A stretch of DNA of 20,119 bases from a virus: the IMG/VR virus record IMGVR_UViG_3300042870_000052, positions 1-20,119 of that record. One strand, given 5' to 3'. The stretch's first letter is position 1, and each line of letters begins with the position of its first letter. Positions 6,701 to 12,567 of the stretch are shown piece after piece. The notes under the pieces are model-generated. The model was not told where the DNA came from. It worked only from the letters and a program-made list of their open reading frames with translations, and searched no databases. Both the position numbers and the translations under genes were made by a program.

Positions 6701-9217
6701 TTATGGTCCGGTCGCGATGACATACCATGCCGACCCATCACAAATAATTGTTTTTGATGCATAATTTGTGTTAATGTCTAAATGATCGGATCCATTGATT
6801 GTTTGTCCGGCATATGCATTGACAACCGCGGTGTGCGCTGATCCCAACTTTACAAAATAATATCTTTTGCCTTTTTGTTCGGCAACCGCTGGCAAATTGA
6901 TTGTGATTGATCCACCGGCCCCATTTAACAAATGACCTTCGAATGCCAAATCTAATGAATGGGTCCCGGCGGTGTATGTCTTGAATGTTCCATGTTCCTG
7001 AACCAACCATGTCACCGAATCGGTGGAATCGGTATATTTCAACATCACTTCCCATTGTGTTGTTTGTGTGGGTTGTGTTGTTGGTGCCTGATCAGCATAA
7101 TTCACCAAGTGTTCCAACACCTGATTTGGAACCGCTGAAATTGATCCATTCAAATTGGCAACCGCGGTTTCGGTATAATTTAAGCGATCACCCAAATTGC
7201 CGGTTGTCGATTGGTTAACCCTTAATCCTTCGCCGGATGATGTCGAATTTGTGTAAACCGGTGAAATGGCCAACCATTCGCCATCCCATTGTTCGGACCT
7301 CGCATCGAATCGCACACCATTCAAAACCCATGCATAATTATCAAAATACAAAGATTTGATTGATGTCAATGTCCCTGAATCAACCCAATTGCCCCGAATA
7401 ACCGGCAAAAAATCGGCATAAACCGATGCCATTTGCAATCCCAACATTTTTGTAATTGTTCCATGGGTGATTGAATCCCATCCGCCATACCAATCCGATG
7501 CCAACACATCGATTGTCCCATTGTTGACCAACCAATTTCCAAGGCCATAAGGCAATGCATCGGTATAATATACCGGATCCAATATGACCGGTGATGAATT
7601 CACCAAATTGGCGGTGGCTGCGGTTGTTATTTCAGTTATATCAAAAGTATAATCCGCATTTTTATATGGCGATGCATCGGCAAATGAAACTTGAATTGAT
7701 CCCCAAAAATCCTTGGTTGCTGAATTTCCATTTTTCCATTTGCCACCACTTGAATAAGGCAATACATTTCCATGCACTTCTAATTCAATGCGCATTTCGG
7801 TAAATCCGGCCGGCGCGGTTGTGCATGTCAATTCAAATTCGGATGTGATCCAACCGCCTTTGATATTGTTGGTTGGCATTCGATACAATTGGGTTGTCAC
7901 ACTACCGGTCACCCAATATCCATTGTTATTCAATACTTTGATATTGCCACCTGAATCCAATAATTTAATTCTATAATAAAGATCGGTCGAATCTTCAACA
8001 TATGTTATACCGGCATCAACAATCGACCTTTTCAATGACTTTGCCATCAGGCGGATTCGCATTGGTGCATCATCCGGTGTTGATCCGGTTGGAACATCAT
8101 AAACCCGCAATTCCAAAATTGATGATGCGCGATCATTATAATTGCGCAATTGCTTTGCAAGGTTTTGGCGCTTTGTGTTAATAGTGACCGATTGGGCCGC
8201 TGGCTGATAATACAAAGAAGGTTTTGCCATCCACAATGGGCGAACATCATTGCCGATTGTTTGTCGGTGTGTGTAGGTGGTTGTTCCGATATACTGTGCA
8301 GTATATGAATACCGCCTTAAATTGATTGTGGTGGCACTATTATATGCGGTTGGTGGTATAACATAGTATGCACCAAGTTCGTGGATTAGGCGCGCCCCAA
8401 ACATCAACAATACATTTTCCAATGCTTGTTTGCATGATATGTAATTTGGTTCAACCAACCAACCGACCGCATCAACTATTTTAACATCACTAAATGGATC
8501 AAAGTTGGTCAAAAAGGTGTATTCATCCACTTTGTACATGTCGATTCCCAATCGGGATGCATGCGATTCCCGCAACAAAACACCTTCATATAAATATTCG
8601 GTTTGTGTTCCATTAATGGCCCAATATTCCCATAAATCAAATGATTCTAAACACCGGCGGATCAATTGTGAAATTGTGATTTTACCACTGCTAAACCATG
8701 CCGATTTCACTTTGAATCCATCCATCAATTCCAATCCATCAACCGCCACCAATTCAATGATGGGTTTTGATTGGATTGATTCCCGCAATCGGGTCATTTG
8801 GTCCGCCAATACTCGACCAACATACCACATGACATCATCGCGATAAATGATCATCGCCCATGCGGTTTCCGCCATGGTTTGGATTGCAATAAAATCATCC
8901 AAGGTTGTTTGATCAGGCATCACCCATTGCGCAGTTGCGCGGGATGATCTGACAAAATTTTCATATACTGAATCGCCTTCGCCTTGCCTTTCAATGCTGA
9001 AACCATTGCCGGCCAATTTTAATTCGGTGGATGAATTAAGGGATTGTAATTTTGTTAAAAGGCATGATGATCCTTCTTGGTAACCTCCGGCGGCCAATAC
9101 CCTTGCGGCATATAATCGCGCGGTGATTTCGGGTGTTGTTCCTGATGGATCATCCCATAATTCAATGCGATAAGTTACATTTTGAATACTTTTGAAGGAA
9201 CCGACATATTTTCTCAT
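6701..9217 (-). CDS. Tail-tip / tail-hub protein
   Basis: This 838-residue protein directly follows the tape measure gene (TAATG overlap at 9217), the usual place for distal tail and tail-associated proteins. The N-terminus ('NVTYRIELWDD', 13-23, then about 65-180) resembles tail-hub modules of Bacteroidota phages, including 'GNGFSIERQGEGDSVYENF' (70-88). Between the first strand and this block sits a 30-residue insert with a Gly/Cys motif (about 31-62). The middle is long and beta-rich. The last about 80 residues (starting near 'HSLDLAFEGHLLNG', ending 'IICDGSAWYVIATGP') look like a fibre-tip or trimerising beta domain. No other large tail-tip gene is present before the fibre, so this protein may combine distal-tail and tail-associated roles. 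No peptidase motif was seen. Confidence 0.8.
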   Translation of the reverse strand: MRKYVGSFKSIQNVTYRIELWDDPSGTTPEITARLYAARVLAAGGYQEGSSCLLTKLQSLNSSTELKLAGNGFSIERQGEGDSVYENFVRSSRATAQWVMPDQTTLDDFIAIQTMAETAWAMIIYRDDVMWYVGRVLADQMTRLRESIQSKPIIELVAVDGLELMDGFKVKSAWFSSGKITISQLIRRCLESFDLWEYWAINGTQTEYLYEGVLLRESHASRLGIDMYKVDEYTFLTNFDPFSDVKIVDAVGWLVEPNYISCKQALENVLLMFGARLIHELGAYYVIPPTAYNSATTINLRRYSYTAQYIGTTTYTHRQTIGNDVRPLWMAKPSLYYQPAAQSVTINTKRQNLAKQLRNYNDRASSILELRVYDVPTGSTPDDAPMRIRLMAKSLKRSIVDAGITYVEDSTDLYYRIKLLDSGGNIKVLNNNGYWVTGSVTTQLYRMPTNNIKGGWITSEFELTCTTAPAGFTEMRIELEVHGNVLPYSSGGKWKNGNSATKDFWGSIQVSFADASPYKNADYTFDITEITTAATANLVNSSPVILDPVYYTDALPYGLGNWLVNNGTIDVLASDWYGGWDSITHGTITKMLGLQMASVYADFLPVIRGNWVDSGTLTSIKSLYFDNYAWVLNGVRFDARSEQWDGEWLAISPVYTNSTSSGEGLRVNQSTTGNLGDRLNYTETAVANLNGSISAVPNQVLEHLVNYADQAPTTQPTQTTQWEVMLKYTDSTDSVTWLVQEHGTFKTYTAGTHSLDLAFEGHLLNGAGGSITINLPAVAEQKGKRYYFVKLGSAHTAVVNAYAGQTINGSDHLDINTNYASKTIICDGSAWYVIATGP

Positions 9218-11040
9218 TACCCGCGCTTTGAATCTTTATTGTATCTTTCTAAAACAATCGCCAAATCGCGACCCTGAATTGTTGTGGATGCTATAAATCC
9301 GCCGGATGATTGTTCGGGTTTCATTAGTGTTTTTAATTTATCTAATGGCGCAATAACTTCGGGGTTTGACCTTGCATTTGGGTATTCGCCCATCAATCCT
9401 AATGTCGGCCCGCTGACAATACCACCATCGGCAAATGCTGGCACTGATGGACCGGCTTTTAATTGTGATGAAACCGCGGTTCCCAATGCAACCATTGCAA
9501 TACCGGCGGCGACTGCGGCGGCCGGATTAACAAATGCTGCCTTAAATTTCGAAATCGCAATACCATATGCAATCAATTGTTTTCCGACTGTTTTAATAAA
9601 GTTCGCAATTGAACCCAAAATTACTTTTGCAAAATCTTCAAATGGGTTGCCCTGACCTGACAATGCATTTCCTAATGCTTCGCCCAATCCAATTGCCAAA
9701 TCTTCACCAAGGGTTTCAACTGACTTTGAAATGTCGGTTGTCAATTGGTCCATGTCTTGAACAATCTTTGATCGGCTTTTATCATCAATTTTAACCTGAA
9801 TCAATACCGGTGGAACCGCGGTTCCGGCAATCATATTTGTTCCGCTGAATTGTTTTGATTTCAACAAATCTGATGCGGCCTTTTCCCTAATCTTTTTATT
9901 TTGTTCAATAAAGAATCTTTCAGCATCATTGGTGGCTTGCCCTTGGGCCTTGATCAATGCGATTGAATCGTCAAATTCTTTTTGTTGCGCCTTCTTTTTT
10001 GCTTCGCGCCTTTTTTCGCCATTGGCAATTGATTGGCTTGTTTGCAGTTCTTCGATTTTGCCTTCGGTTTCTGATATGTTTCGGCTAATTTGTAAATATT
10101 GTGCCGAATATTTGTCATAACTGGCCAAATTGGATTCCAAATTGGATTTCCTTTTTTGCCAAAATGCAATTTCAATTTGTGTTTGTTCCTTATCGCTTGC
10201 ACCGCGCAATTTGGCGGCATCCAATTCTTTCTTCAACAATTGATCGGCAATTTCCATCCCGTTCTTTGATGCTTCTTTGGATGATTCCGCTTGCTTGTTA
10301 TATGCCTCGGTTAATGTATTAACCGCTTTTGTTGTGTCTTTTGTTTTGTCCTTGACATTGGAAAATGCTGATGCAATCAATCCGATTGCAACCAAGATTG
10401 CGCCCGCGCCGGTTGCCACTAATGCGCCGGCATAAACCCGCGCCGCAACTGTTGCTTGACCCATCACATAGGTTTGAATTCTCATTGCTGCGGTGTTCAA
10501 ACCAACCATGAATGCGCTTTCCGCTTGCAAATTACTTTGAAGCGCTTGCAATCCATTAACCAAGGCCAATGCACCTTGCAATTGCACCATTGTTTTTTGC
10601 AAATCCTTTGATTCAATTCCCATCAATGCCGCCGCGCCTTCAACCGCGCTGAATGCACCGGCCAAACCTTGAACACCACCCAAAACCGCATCCAATCGCC
10701 TTGTATCGCTGGCAAAATATCCAATTTCCGCCCGCATGTCACCAACTGAATCTTTGATCCGGCCGGCTTCTTTGATCACCTCATTTGCAAATTGTTGGAA
10801 TTCAGGACCCAATGATCGGGCCGTCATTGCGATATTTTGCATTTGTCGCACAGTTGCCATTGATGGCTTTGATGCGGCCAACTTGGCAAACTGATCTTGC
10901 ATCCCTTTGATGGCCTCACCGGTCGCGCCTGACAAATCTTTGCCGGCTTTTTGGGTTGCAACAACCGCCGCATCCAATCCCTTTTTAAGGTTTTGAATAT
11001 CGGCCCCGATGATAATATTGAGTGATTGGGATTTGGCCAT
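9217..11040 (-). CDS. Tail tape measure protein
   Basis: This 607-residue protein is long, helical and Ala/Gln/Lys-rich. Hydrophobic stretches lie at about 205-228 (GALVATGAGAILVAIGLIAS) and 504-526. A highly charged coiled coil spans about 230-400. The C-terminal signature is typical of tape measures: 'AFADGGIVSGPTLGLMGEY' (535-553), then 'NPEVIAPLDKL' (559-569). Tape measures fill the tail tube and set its length. Using the rule of thumb of about 0.15 nm per residue, the tail would be roughly 90 nm. It sits downstream of the tail chaperone pair, as expected, but with the tail terminator gene in between. It overlaps its neighbours on both sides as TAATG (11040 and 9217). Confidence 0.92.
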   Translation of the reverse strand: MAKSQSLNIIIGADIQNLKKGLDAAVVATQKAGKDLSGATGEAIKGMQDQFAKLAASKPSMATVRQMQNIAMTARSLGPEFQQFANEVIKEAGRIKDSVGDMRAEIGYFASDTRRLDAVLGGVQGLAGAFSAVEGAAALMGIESKDLQKTMVQLQGALALVNGLQALQSNLQAESAFMVGLNTAAMRIQTYVMGQATVAARVYAGALVATGAGAILVAIGLIASAFSNVKDKTKDTTKAVNTLTEAYNKQAESSKEASKNGMEIADQLLKKELDAAKLRGASDKEQTQIEIAFWQKRKSNLESNLASYDKYSAQYLQISRNISETEGKIEELQTSQSIANGEKRREAKKKAQQKEFDDSIALIKAQGQATNDAERFFIEQNKKIREKAASDLLKSKQFSGTNMIAGTAVPPVLIQVKIDDKSRSKIVQDMDQLTTDISKSVETLGEDLAIGLGEALGNALSGQGNPFEDFAKVILGSIANFIKTVGKQLIAYGIAISKFKAAFVNPAAAVAAGIAMVALGTAVSSQLKAGPSVPAFADGGIVSGPTLGLMGEYPNARSNPEVIAPLDKLKTLMKPEQSSGGFIASTTIQGRDLAIVLERYNKDSKRG

Positions 11041-11441
11041 TATTTGTTGTAATTAATGATATAATCTTGGGCAATATGATAAATTCCCGCAAATCCCGCA
11101 TTATCTTCACTCATATGGGCCTCGCCATCATATTGGCAAGTTTGAACAAATACCGAATTGAATGTCGCCGGCAATGTCAATTCCATTGCATTCCTTACAA
11201 GATCAGCAACCTGAACCGCACTTTGATAAGATGTCCCAAATGAATTGATCTGAATCCTTGCAAAATCACTTTCCGATGGTCCTGATTTGGATGGGTTTGG
11301 AACCAATGAAACCAATTGATAAGAAATCGCCGGAAATGATGATTCTTGTGGGATCCTTAATGGATTGATTCGGGTTGAAACAACCGCCGTCAATGCTGCA
11401 TTATTGGATAAAATATTATAAACTGCATTTATTGCTTTCAT
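11040..11441 (-). CDS. Tail terminator / tail completion protein (DUF3168-like)
   Basis: This 133-residue protein begins MKAINAVYNILSNNAALTAV, with 'RINPLRIPQESSFPAISYQLV' soon after. It continues with 'ARIQINSFGTSYQSAVQVAD' and 'LVRNAMEL'. This order (N-terminal helix, 'P..I..P.ISY', 'I.I..F..SY..A..VAD.VR.A') is the pattern of DUF3168/gp17-type tail completion proteins, which cap the head-proximal end of the tail tube. Those genes usually lie before the tail tube gene; here it lies after the chaperones and before the tape measure. Its ATG overlaps the stop of the T-type chaperone by four bases (ATGA at 11438-11441). Confidence 0.75.
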   Translation of the reverse strand: MKAINAVYNILSNNAALTAVVSTRINPLRIPQESSFPAISYQLVSLVPNPSKSGPSESDFARIQINSFGTSYQSAVQVADLVRNAMELTLPATFNSVFVQTCQYDGEAHMSEDNAGFAGIYHIAQDYIINYNK

Positions 11442-11782
11442 GCTTCGGCTGGCGGGGTTAACTTCGCAAATATATCCGCATATTGAGTAATTTTTGCAAC
11501 AATATCATCAGGTTCAATGATTTCCCATGGGAATGCCATCAACTTGTTTGGGGCGATGGGTTTTTTCAAATGGGGTGACATAATTGTTGCCGCCATCCAT
11601 CGGGACATTTCCCATTGATTTTGAAATTCCTGATATTGTGCATTGCGCATGCCAACCAATCGGGCGCGCCAATATCTTGGTGAACACCGACCGAAATCAA
11701 ATTCATTCATGCCCATTTCGCCGAATGCAATTTGTTCGACTTTGCGCCATGTCAATGGTGGGCCTTCATTGCTGGCACTTAC
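11438..11782 (-). CDS. Tail assembly chaperone T extension, made by -1 frameshift from G
   Basis: This frame lacks a convincing start. The first usable codon is TTG at 11753-11755, with no ribosome-binding signal. Read from a -1 slip at the A AAA AAG site (11782-11788), it continues the upstream chaperone as VSASNEGPPLTWRKVEQI. The phrase 'PPLTW..V...AFG.MG' is characteristic of the T part of phage G/GT tail chaperones. The extension is 114 residues, giving a 224-residue GT protein. GT-type proteins hold the tape measure while the tail tube polymerises and are absent from the finished particle. It precedes the tape measure as expected, with the DUF3168-like gene in between. Confidence 0.8.
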   Translation of the reverse strand, partial: VSASNEGPPLTWRKVEQIAFGEMGMNEFDFGRCSPRYWRARLVGMRNAQYQEFQNQWEMSRWMAATIMSPHLKKPIAPNKLMAFPWEIIEPDDIVAKITQYADIFAKLTPPAEA

Positions 11783-11788
11783 TTTTTT
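11744..11788 (-). promoter_or_regulatory. Programmed -1 frameshift site with downstream stem-loop
   Basis: The minus strand reads GAA AAA AAG TAA at the end of the G-type gene. The heptamer A AAA AAG (11788 to 11782) is the classic bacterial slippery sequence and is in the correct frame. Three bases later GTGCCA (11773-11778) can pair with TGGCGC (11744-11749). Inside that, CAATG (11767-11771) can pair with CATTG (11753-11757), forming a two-part stem-loop that could pause ribosomes. Confidence 0.8.
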
Positions 11789-12111
11789 TCTTCGCCTTCT
11801 TCGATGGTGAAAAAATCGGCGATGGCTTGTGAAAAACCATTCATGGCCGGCAATAATTCGGTATATTTTGTAATTTTTCGACCAATTTGTGATTCGGTCA
11901 AAAATGGCGATTGCTTTCCATCAATTTCATACCCTTCTAAAATGCCATAAAATGCGCAAACCAATGACAAATCCAAAGTTTTTGCCATGTCCAAATGCTT
12001 TTGCAAATCTGCGAATGATTCCATGCCAATGTGCGACATCACATTGCGCAATGAATTCATGTTAAAAATAAGGGGATGAATTTCACCCCCTATTTCAATT
12101 TTGTTTTTCAT
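11779..12111 (-). CDS. Tail assembly chaperone, G-type product
   Basis: This 110-residue protein (MKNKIEIGGEIHPLIFNMNS...) is small, acidic and helical, and ends in a Glu/Lys-rich tail 'TIEEGEEKK'. Position (after the tail tube gene, before the tape measure), size and the frameshift signal in its last codons mark it as the G half of the G/GT tail chaperone pair. Normal termination gives G; a -1 slip at 11782-11788 gives the longer GT form. G-type proteins bind the tape measure during tail assembly. The start at 12111 is an ATG in an AT-rich context, 24 bases after the tail tube gene. Residues 'GRKITKYTELLPAM' (about 76-89) form the most distinct helix. Confidence 0.8.
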   Translation of the reverse strand: MKNKIEIGGEIHPLIFNMNSLRNVMSHIGMESFADLQKHLDMAKTLDLSLVCAFYGILEGYEIDGKQSPFLTESQIGRKITKYTELLPAMNGFSQAIADFFTIEEGEEKK

Positions 12112-12135: not shown

Positions 12136-12567
12136 TTAAATAGTTGAAACAGTCAATGCGCCGGTTCCTTGAATCGATGCAGTGAATGTTGAAACCGCAT
12201 TTTGTGGGGCGGTCAATTTCAAATCATTAAACAATGCTGATCCGCTTAATTTCAAATCGCCGGAAACATTTGATGTCATGACAATTGTCACCGATGTTCC
12301 GGCCAATAAATCAGTGATGATTTCTTTCCAACTGATTAATGCACCAACTGATCCATCTTCTTCGAACATACCTTCAACCGACATTGTATATCCATACTCA
12401 CCCGCGATGTATTCTTTCGCGCCGGCTGAATCTTTGTTAGTTGTTTCGATCATGTCTTTAGTGATTGTAAAATCATTTGATGTCGCATTCGCGATTTTTG
12501 TTAGGGTCCCGCTGATGTCTTTGTAGATCGCGATCAGGGTTCCATTGGTGATGCCTGTGGTTGCCAT
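12136..12567 (-). CDS. Major tail (tube) protein
   Basis: This 143-residue protein starts MATTGITNGTLIAIYKDISG. It follows the pattern of TP901-1-type tail tube proteins. A strand pair at the N-terminus is followed by 'TSNDFTITKDMIETTNKDS' (29-47), matching the family's 'i....' block that ends with 'ETT.KDS.G'. Then comes 'YTMSVEGMFEEDGSVG' (about 60-75) and a C-terminal beta half that ends in 'TFTASIQGTGAL'. The protein forms the stacked hexameric rings of the non-contractile tail tube. It lies between the neck gene and the tail chaperones, the expected order. No extra C-terminal Ig-like domain is present. Confidence 0.85.
   Translation of the reverse strand: MATTGITNGTLIAIYKDISGTLTKIANATSNDFTITKDMIETTNKDSAGAKEYIAGEYGYTMSVEGMFEEDGSVGALISWKEIITDLLAGTSVTIVMTSNVSGDLKLSGSALFNDLKLTAPQNAVSTFTASIQGTGALTVSTI

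Follow-up and report, generated by a model that had tools for sequence, protein, structure and literature searches.

Organization of the locus

The window, meaning the whole stretch of DNA that was analyzed, is a virus record of 20,119 bases whose minus-strand structural genes run in the familiar order terminase, portal, capsid, connectors and tail tube, followed by a pair of small open reading frames, ORF1 and ORF2. The tail tube (major tail) protein gene (12136..12567, minus strand) was recognized by Pfam Phage_tail_2 (E=2.4e-10) and PHROG 1407, major tail protein (E=2.1e-18). The pair lies just downstream of it and upstream of the gene for the tape measure protein, the presumed client of the chaperones (9217..11040, minus strand), which was assigned by its position and length and by a match to phrog_1538 over part of the protein (E=3.2e-4). 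One extra gene, similar to a tail terminator or gp17 (11441-11040), intervenes between the second reading frame and the tape measure gene. The order differs in Geobacillus phage GBK2, whose tail terminator gene precedes the tail-tube gene. An Rfam scan of the window returned no match.

ORF1 (12111-11779, minus strand), a gene G-like frame of 110 amino acids in the zero frame, ends in the heptamer A_AAA_AAG (11788-11782, minus strand) and a TAA stop that touches it (11781-11779, minus strand). A two-part stem-loop, a likely stimulator, follows at 11778-11744 (minus strand). ORF2 (11438..11782, minus strand) is a T-like second part of 114 codons, read in the -1 frame, that includes PPLTW and ends at the TGA at 11440-11438. 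A terminator-like hairpin with a U-rich tail, separate from the frameshift signal, occupies codons 7-14 of gene G (12071..12091, minus strand).

Identity of the two proteins

Searches of Pfam and NCBIfam with either reading frame gave nothing useful. ORF1 has a weak match to the tail protein family phrog_2115 (E=5.5e-4), and one of its relatives matches the tail chaperone family phrog_183. Its AlphaFold model (pLDDT 85) is a beta-hairpin followed by helices, and a comparison of this model with the BFVD collection retrieved proteins named tail assembly chaperone (E about 1e-3 and 2e-3, TM 0.59 and 0.72) and a protein of Cellulophaga phage phi18:2; a fold search of the PDB matched no solved structure. 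The first-pass annotation had called this gene a tail assembly chaperone, and the weak sequence match, the clear fold match and the position of the pair after the tail-tube gene agree with it. The assignment is supported by the predicted fold, with modest support from sequence.

All members of the ORF2 family match phrog_16333, a family of unknown function, and the alignment begins only at residue 18, as if the family had been built from truncated gene calls or internal starts. For the ORF2 model the fold match was to a second Cellulophaga phage phi18:2 protein (E=1.9e-3). A single viral protein of 247 residues, A0A0K1LMC7, is matched by both the ORF1 and the ORF2 models, as the joined product would be. 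A tblastn search with the T part found distant homologs in Bacteroides phages, Cellulophaga phage phi39:1, Geobacillus phage GBK2 and Bacillus phage Silence, in each case with a G-like gene on one side and the tape measure gene on the other.

Slip site and reading frames in the window

The end of ORF1 reads GGC GAA GAA AAA AAG TAA, which places A_AAA_AAG in the X_XXY_YYZ phase with TAA immediately after it; the earlier description of a first gene ending in GAA AAA AAG TAA with the heptamer in frame is exact to the base. An upstream TGA at 11923 bounds the -1 frame, which stays open from 11920 until the TGA at 11440-11438. It had also been claimed that a -1 slip would bypass the stop and enter a frame whose only independent start would be a poor TTG, and we find this TTG at 11755, inside PPLTW and 24 nt past the stop of gene G, as the first ATG, GTG or TTG of the ORF2 frame; the next are ATG codons at 11716 and 11710. 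The predicted fusion junction reads ...EEGEEKK-VSASNEGPPLTWRKVEQ....

Conservation of the slip site among relatives

Two sets of relatives were used. The first was gathered through the neighboring tail-tube protein, the next gene then being read, and comprises 78 loci with 66 distinct sequences; because it was collected through the tail-tube protein, it is unbiased as to the outcome at the slip site. The second was anchored independently on a DNA pattern at the 5' end of gene G and adds at least 66 further distinct genes. The relatives are not mutually independent, and mosaic exchange is visible among them. In one mosaic (L025) T is almost the same as in the window over its C-terminal half, and the block containing G and the heptamer belongs with the other group.

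A perfect heptamer touches the stop in 60 of the 66 distinct relatives of the first set (A_AAA_AAG in 21, G_GGA_AAG in 35 and G_GGA_AAA in 4). Two more (L059 and L083) carry G_GGA_AAG placed 27 nt upstream of the stop, and the remaining four (L061, L070, L068 and L057) have no perfect heptamer. The sequence of L061 and L070 is CGG AAA AAG AAA ACC CCC TAA and that of L068 is TTG GAA AAG; L061, L070/L071 and L068 retain A_AAG in frame, which is known as a weaker slip motif (PMC5009743), and their G stop now lies in C_CCC_TAA, which overlaps the PLTF codons. It is conceivable that C_CCC_TAA is another slip point in L061, L070 and L068. The GGGAACG found in place of the heptamer in L057 may be a sequencing error. 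Among the matches listed for the second set, G_GGA_AAG occurs at least 58 times, G_GGA_AAA at least once and G_GGG_GAG at least 7 times (L173, L184, L186, L208, L241, L251 and L273), every heptamer stands directly before TAA and the -1 frame is open in all. The last of these heptamers is close to GGGGGAA, a motif that is very common at annotated chaperone frameshifts (PMC10274946).

As a control, we examined other reading frame ends on the same contigs, and a heptamer of the form X_XX[A/T] touched the stop in 3 of 319. A looser control was less striking: the -1 frame was open for 80 codons at 220 of 689 other mechanically listed ends, and 10 of those 220 also had an in-frame heptamer within the last 37 nt. 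The constraint is visible at the level of codons. The glycine codon at the slip site is GGA in 22/22 representatives, against 26% elsewhere in both genes, and the codon preceding GGA is GAG, GTG, TCG, GCG or CAG (E, V, S, A or Q), always with G in the third position. Synonymous differences near the site drop to about 0.24-0.36 of expectation. On trees built without the trait's own residues the heptamer changes state 5 times with ORF1 and 5 times with ORF2, its phase being kept. Across these alignments the heptamer is conserved by type and not by its letters or by the amino acids it encodes.

The same comparison bears on two other accounts of the junction. An RNA polymerase slipping on the A7 run could shift the frame in place of the ribosome: the run GAAAAAAAG is A-rich, long A runs are known to permit such slippage (PMC3711429) and phage phi39:1 has its second frame at +1 to an A8 run. 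The many close relatives that carry G_GGA_AAG or G_GGA_AAA, with at most 3-4 A residues, in the same place and phase make this account highly improbable for the window. Alternatively, ORF1 and ORF2 could be one gene that a sequencing error or mutational decay has split, and the junction does lie at a homopolymer, where such errors occur; yet the same break recurs at varied letters that form no homopolymer on more than 100 contigs from separate samples, and both frames are under purifying selection (median dN/dS 0.33 for ORF1 and 0.22 for ORF2), so that a broken gene is scarcely credible. The first-pass annotation had suggested comparing related phages for conservation of the heptamer and both frames, and the 60 of 66 relatives with a heptamer at the stop, together with the selection on the two frames, show such conservation.

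Start of the second frame

The T part is conserved in all relatives, with 25 invariant columns, and its conserved domain begins with an L-[TSD]-[WF] block. No ATG or GTG precedes the conserved domain of the second frame in any of the 66 relatives of the first set. In 41 of them there is no ATG, GTG or TTG at all between the upstream stop and the block, and in the other 25 the sole candidate start is a TTG at the Leu codon of the block itself. Since this Leu codon is CTA, TTA, CTT, CTC or CTG in 41/66, TTG is ruled out as a conserved start. A relative that had lost the slip site while keeping an ATG for the second frame would have spoken against frameshifting, and none occurs among 132 distinct relatives, the second set being counted from the matches listed.

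These observations weigh on the view that ORF2 is a separate gene, translated by reinitiation after the G stop at the TTG at 11755 or at an internal ATG. The TTG 24 nt past the stop and the ATG codons at 11716 and 11710 would offer such starts, and the phrog_16333 alignment looks as if its proteins had been called from an internal start. Codons that cannot serve as starts replace the TTG in those 41 distinct relatives, however, an ATG start would drop the conserved L-T-[WF] block and the conserved residues up to the ATG codons, and the conservation of heptamer type and phase would be left unexplained. We consider reinitiation very unlikely. Automated gene calls at this locus probably omit the first residues of the T part.

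Downstream stem-loop and other stimulators

A two-part stem-loop of six plus five pairs, three bases past the slip site, had been described at first pass, and it was recovered at the same place. It starts 3 nt past the heptamer and consists of 6 outer pairs, 5 inner pairs and 1 bridging pair, with a folding energy of -13.4 kcal/mol (z about -2.4 to -2.7; 1/200 and 3/200 shuffles folded equally well). In an alignment of the window's group (A4; 16 gap-free sequences, 12 pairs tested), 80.6% of cells are paired, against at most 45.6% (rounded, at most 46%) for any slid register. The covariation score, 0.271, is higher than in any of the 500 shuffles or any slid register, with compensatory changes at columns 20-34, 21-33 and 17-39. 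In the other group (A5), analyzed in one common register, covariation gives no support for a stem-loop; single members (L092 and L096) fold well and several have less stable folds. By eye, subgroups use a stem-loop register offset by one base. Because the covariation holds in A4 and the common register does not in A5, backing for the stimulator is confined to the window's own group, in which the comparative sequences support a stimulatory role. Inspection by eye of the region upstream of the site found no conserved purine-rich, Shine-Dalgarno-like core at 10-14 nt.

Stop codons and a hairpin in gene G

The stop after the slip site is TAA in 38, TAG in 28 and TGA in 0 of the 66 relatives of the first set, while other reading frames end in TAA (225), TGA (86, 27%) or TAG (8, 2.5%). 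Among the matches listed for the second set it is TAA throughout, which gives 0/132 distinct copies with TGA when the second set is counted from those matches. The amino acid does not explain this absence, because TGA would leave the slipped codon valine (GTG); a TGA at this position would, however, create a GTG start. We regard the avoidance of TGA as a lead and not as a result, since the relatedness of the sequences weakens the count.

The hairpin in gene G lies at 12091-12071 (minus strand), 45 nt after the tail-tube stop, with a U-rich tail extending to about 12063. Hairpin and T run fall within codons 7-16 and are present in all relatives L021-L100. The hairpin codons GGG GGT and CCC CTT are identical in 28/28 representatives, each being used at 9-24% elsewhere, and in the viral collection the DNA pattern of the hairpin occurred only at gene G among the loci checked. 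These features make it a candidate transcription attenuator. A strong terminator-like hairpin with a GGGGGTGGCCCC core and a T run, similar in sequence to that of gene G, is found in the window at 1489-1459 (minus strand).

It is possible, though we think it unlikely, that the stoichiometry of the tail is set twice, by an attenuator in the first 16 codons of G and by the frameshift site fused to the stop. If so, the attenuator would lower everything downstream of the tail-tube gene, and the release factor acting at TAA or TAG would compete with slippage and set the fraction of GT.

Comparison with known systems

The lambda G/GT heptamer is G_GGA_AAG. The locus resembles lambda G/GT in having two overlapping genes after the tail-tube gene, an X_XXY_YYZ heptamer that ends the first gene and a -1 frame with no conserved start, and the G_GGA_AAG of the relatives is identical to the lambda heptamer. 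Unlike lambda, no match to the named lambda G or T families was found here, the heptamer touches the zero-frame stop and T is separated from the tape measure gene by a tail-terminator-like gene.

Bacillus phage Silence (KT001912), in which joined tape measure chaperones are annotated, has the same gene order up to T and carries C_CCA_AAG directly before TAG, likewise touching the stop. Its T part shows weak tblastn similarity (E=0.04, about 25% identity), and it differs in its heptamer and in the phylum of its host. In Bacteroides phages F2, F4 and Bacuni_F1 the order is tail tube, G, T and tape measure, with the tape measure gene directly after T in F4, and their T part is similar to that of a relative of the window (E=5e-6). 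The G protein of F4 ends GEEKKS at its stop; its gene has A_AAA_AAA three bases upstream of that stop, and T follows in the -1 frame; in all three phages the pair is annotated as two hypothetical proteins with no frameshift. The pair of Cellulophaga phage phi39:1 (L280, about 1447-1812) is also annotated as two hypothetical proteins. There the T-like frame lies at +1 with respect to G, the two meeting at an A8 run, and therefore transcriptional slippage or a +1/-2 shift may operate in that phage.

Outside the tail genes, the combination of A_AAA_AAG with a 3' stem-loop is like the -1 site of dnaX, and in a few bacterial dnaX genes the zero-frame stop directly follows the slip site (PMC5009743). 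Unlike dnaX, where the logic of the E. coli products is reversed, the stem in the window begins 3 nt past the site, and no conserved Shine-Dalgarno-like element was seen upstream by eye. We had considered the stop-touching slip site as a novelty and dropped this, as it also occurs in Silence, Rous sarcoma virus, barley yellow dwarf virus and some dnaX genes.

Proposed mechanism

We conclude that the locus very probably encodes tail chaperones of the lambda G/GT type, expressed by -1 programmed frameshifting. The comparison strongly supports this reading, which was that of the first-pass annotation, and the frameshifting event and its rate are predictions from sequence. Most ribosomes would translate G and halt at the TAA right after the heptamer. 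A minority would slip back one base on A_AAA_AAG, with the stem-loop 3 nt downstream as a stimulator, and read ...EEKK-VSASNEGPPLTW... to give a predicted GT fusion of about 224 residues. The slip could take place while the lysine codons fill the P and A sites, or after one further step, once the stop has entered the A site. If lambda is a guide, G would coat the tape measure protein and the T part would recruit tail-tube subunits, and for this reason the ratio of G to GT would matter for tail assembly.

The ratio of G to GT is crucial in lambda, where it is about 30:1 (PMC5009743), and related chaperone fusions shifted frame at 6-7% when assayed with a reporter (PMC3711429). Slip site and stop lie a mean of 26 and 36 nt apart in two chaperone gene sets (PMC10274946); in the window the distance is zero, which is shorter than usual. 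Work on the HIV site shows that a stop in that position lets the release factor compete with slippage (PMC4373837).

Host and significance

Relatives of the T, G or capsid proteins occur in Cellulophaga and Bacteroides phages, and promoter-like motifs of the TAnnTTTG type are present. Together these suggest a host among the Bacteroidota; a host or prophage search of the bacterial genome collection found no relative. According to one report (PMC9976891), Bacteroidota ribosomes fail to recognize Shine-Dalgarno sequences, and if the hosts are Bacteroidota, the frameshift would have to work without a Shine-Dalgarno stimulator.

Lambda-type chaperone frameshifting is itself a well-known phage mechanism. 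What the locus appears to add is a well-supported, previously unannotated -1 frameshift for a group of uncultured phages, and with it a naturally occurring set of slip sites that can replace one another, A_AAA_AAG, G_GGA_AAG, G_GGA_AAA and probably G_GGG_GAG, placed nearly always against the stop.
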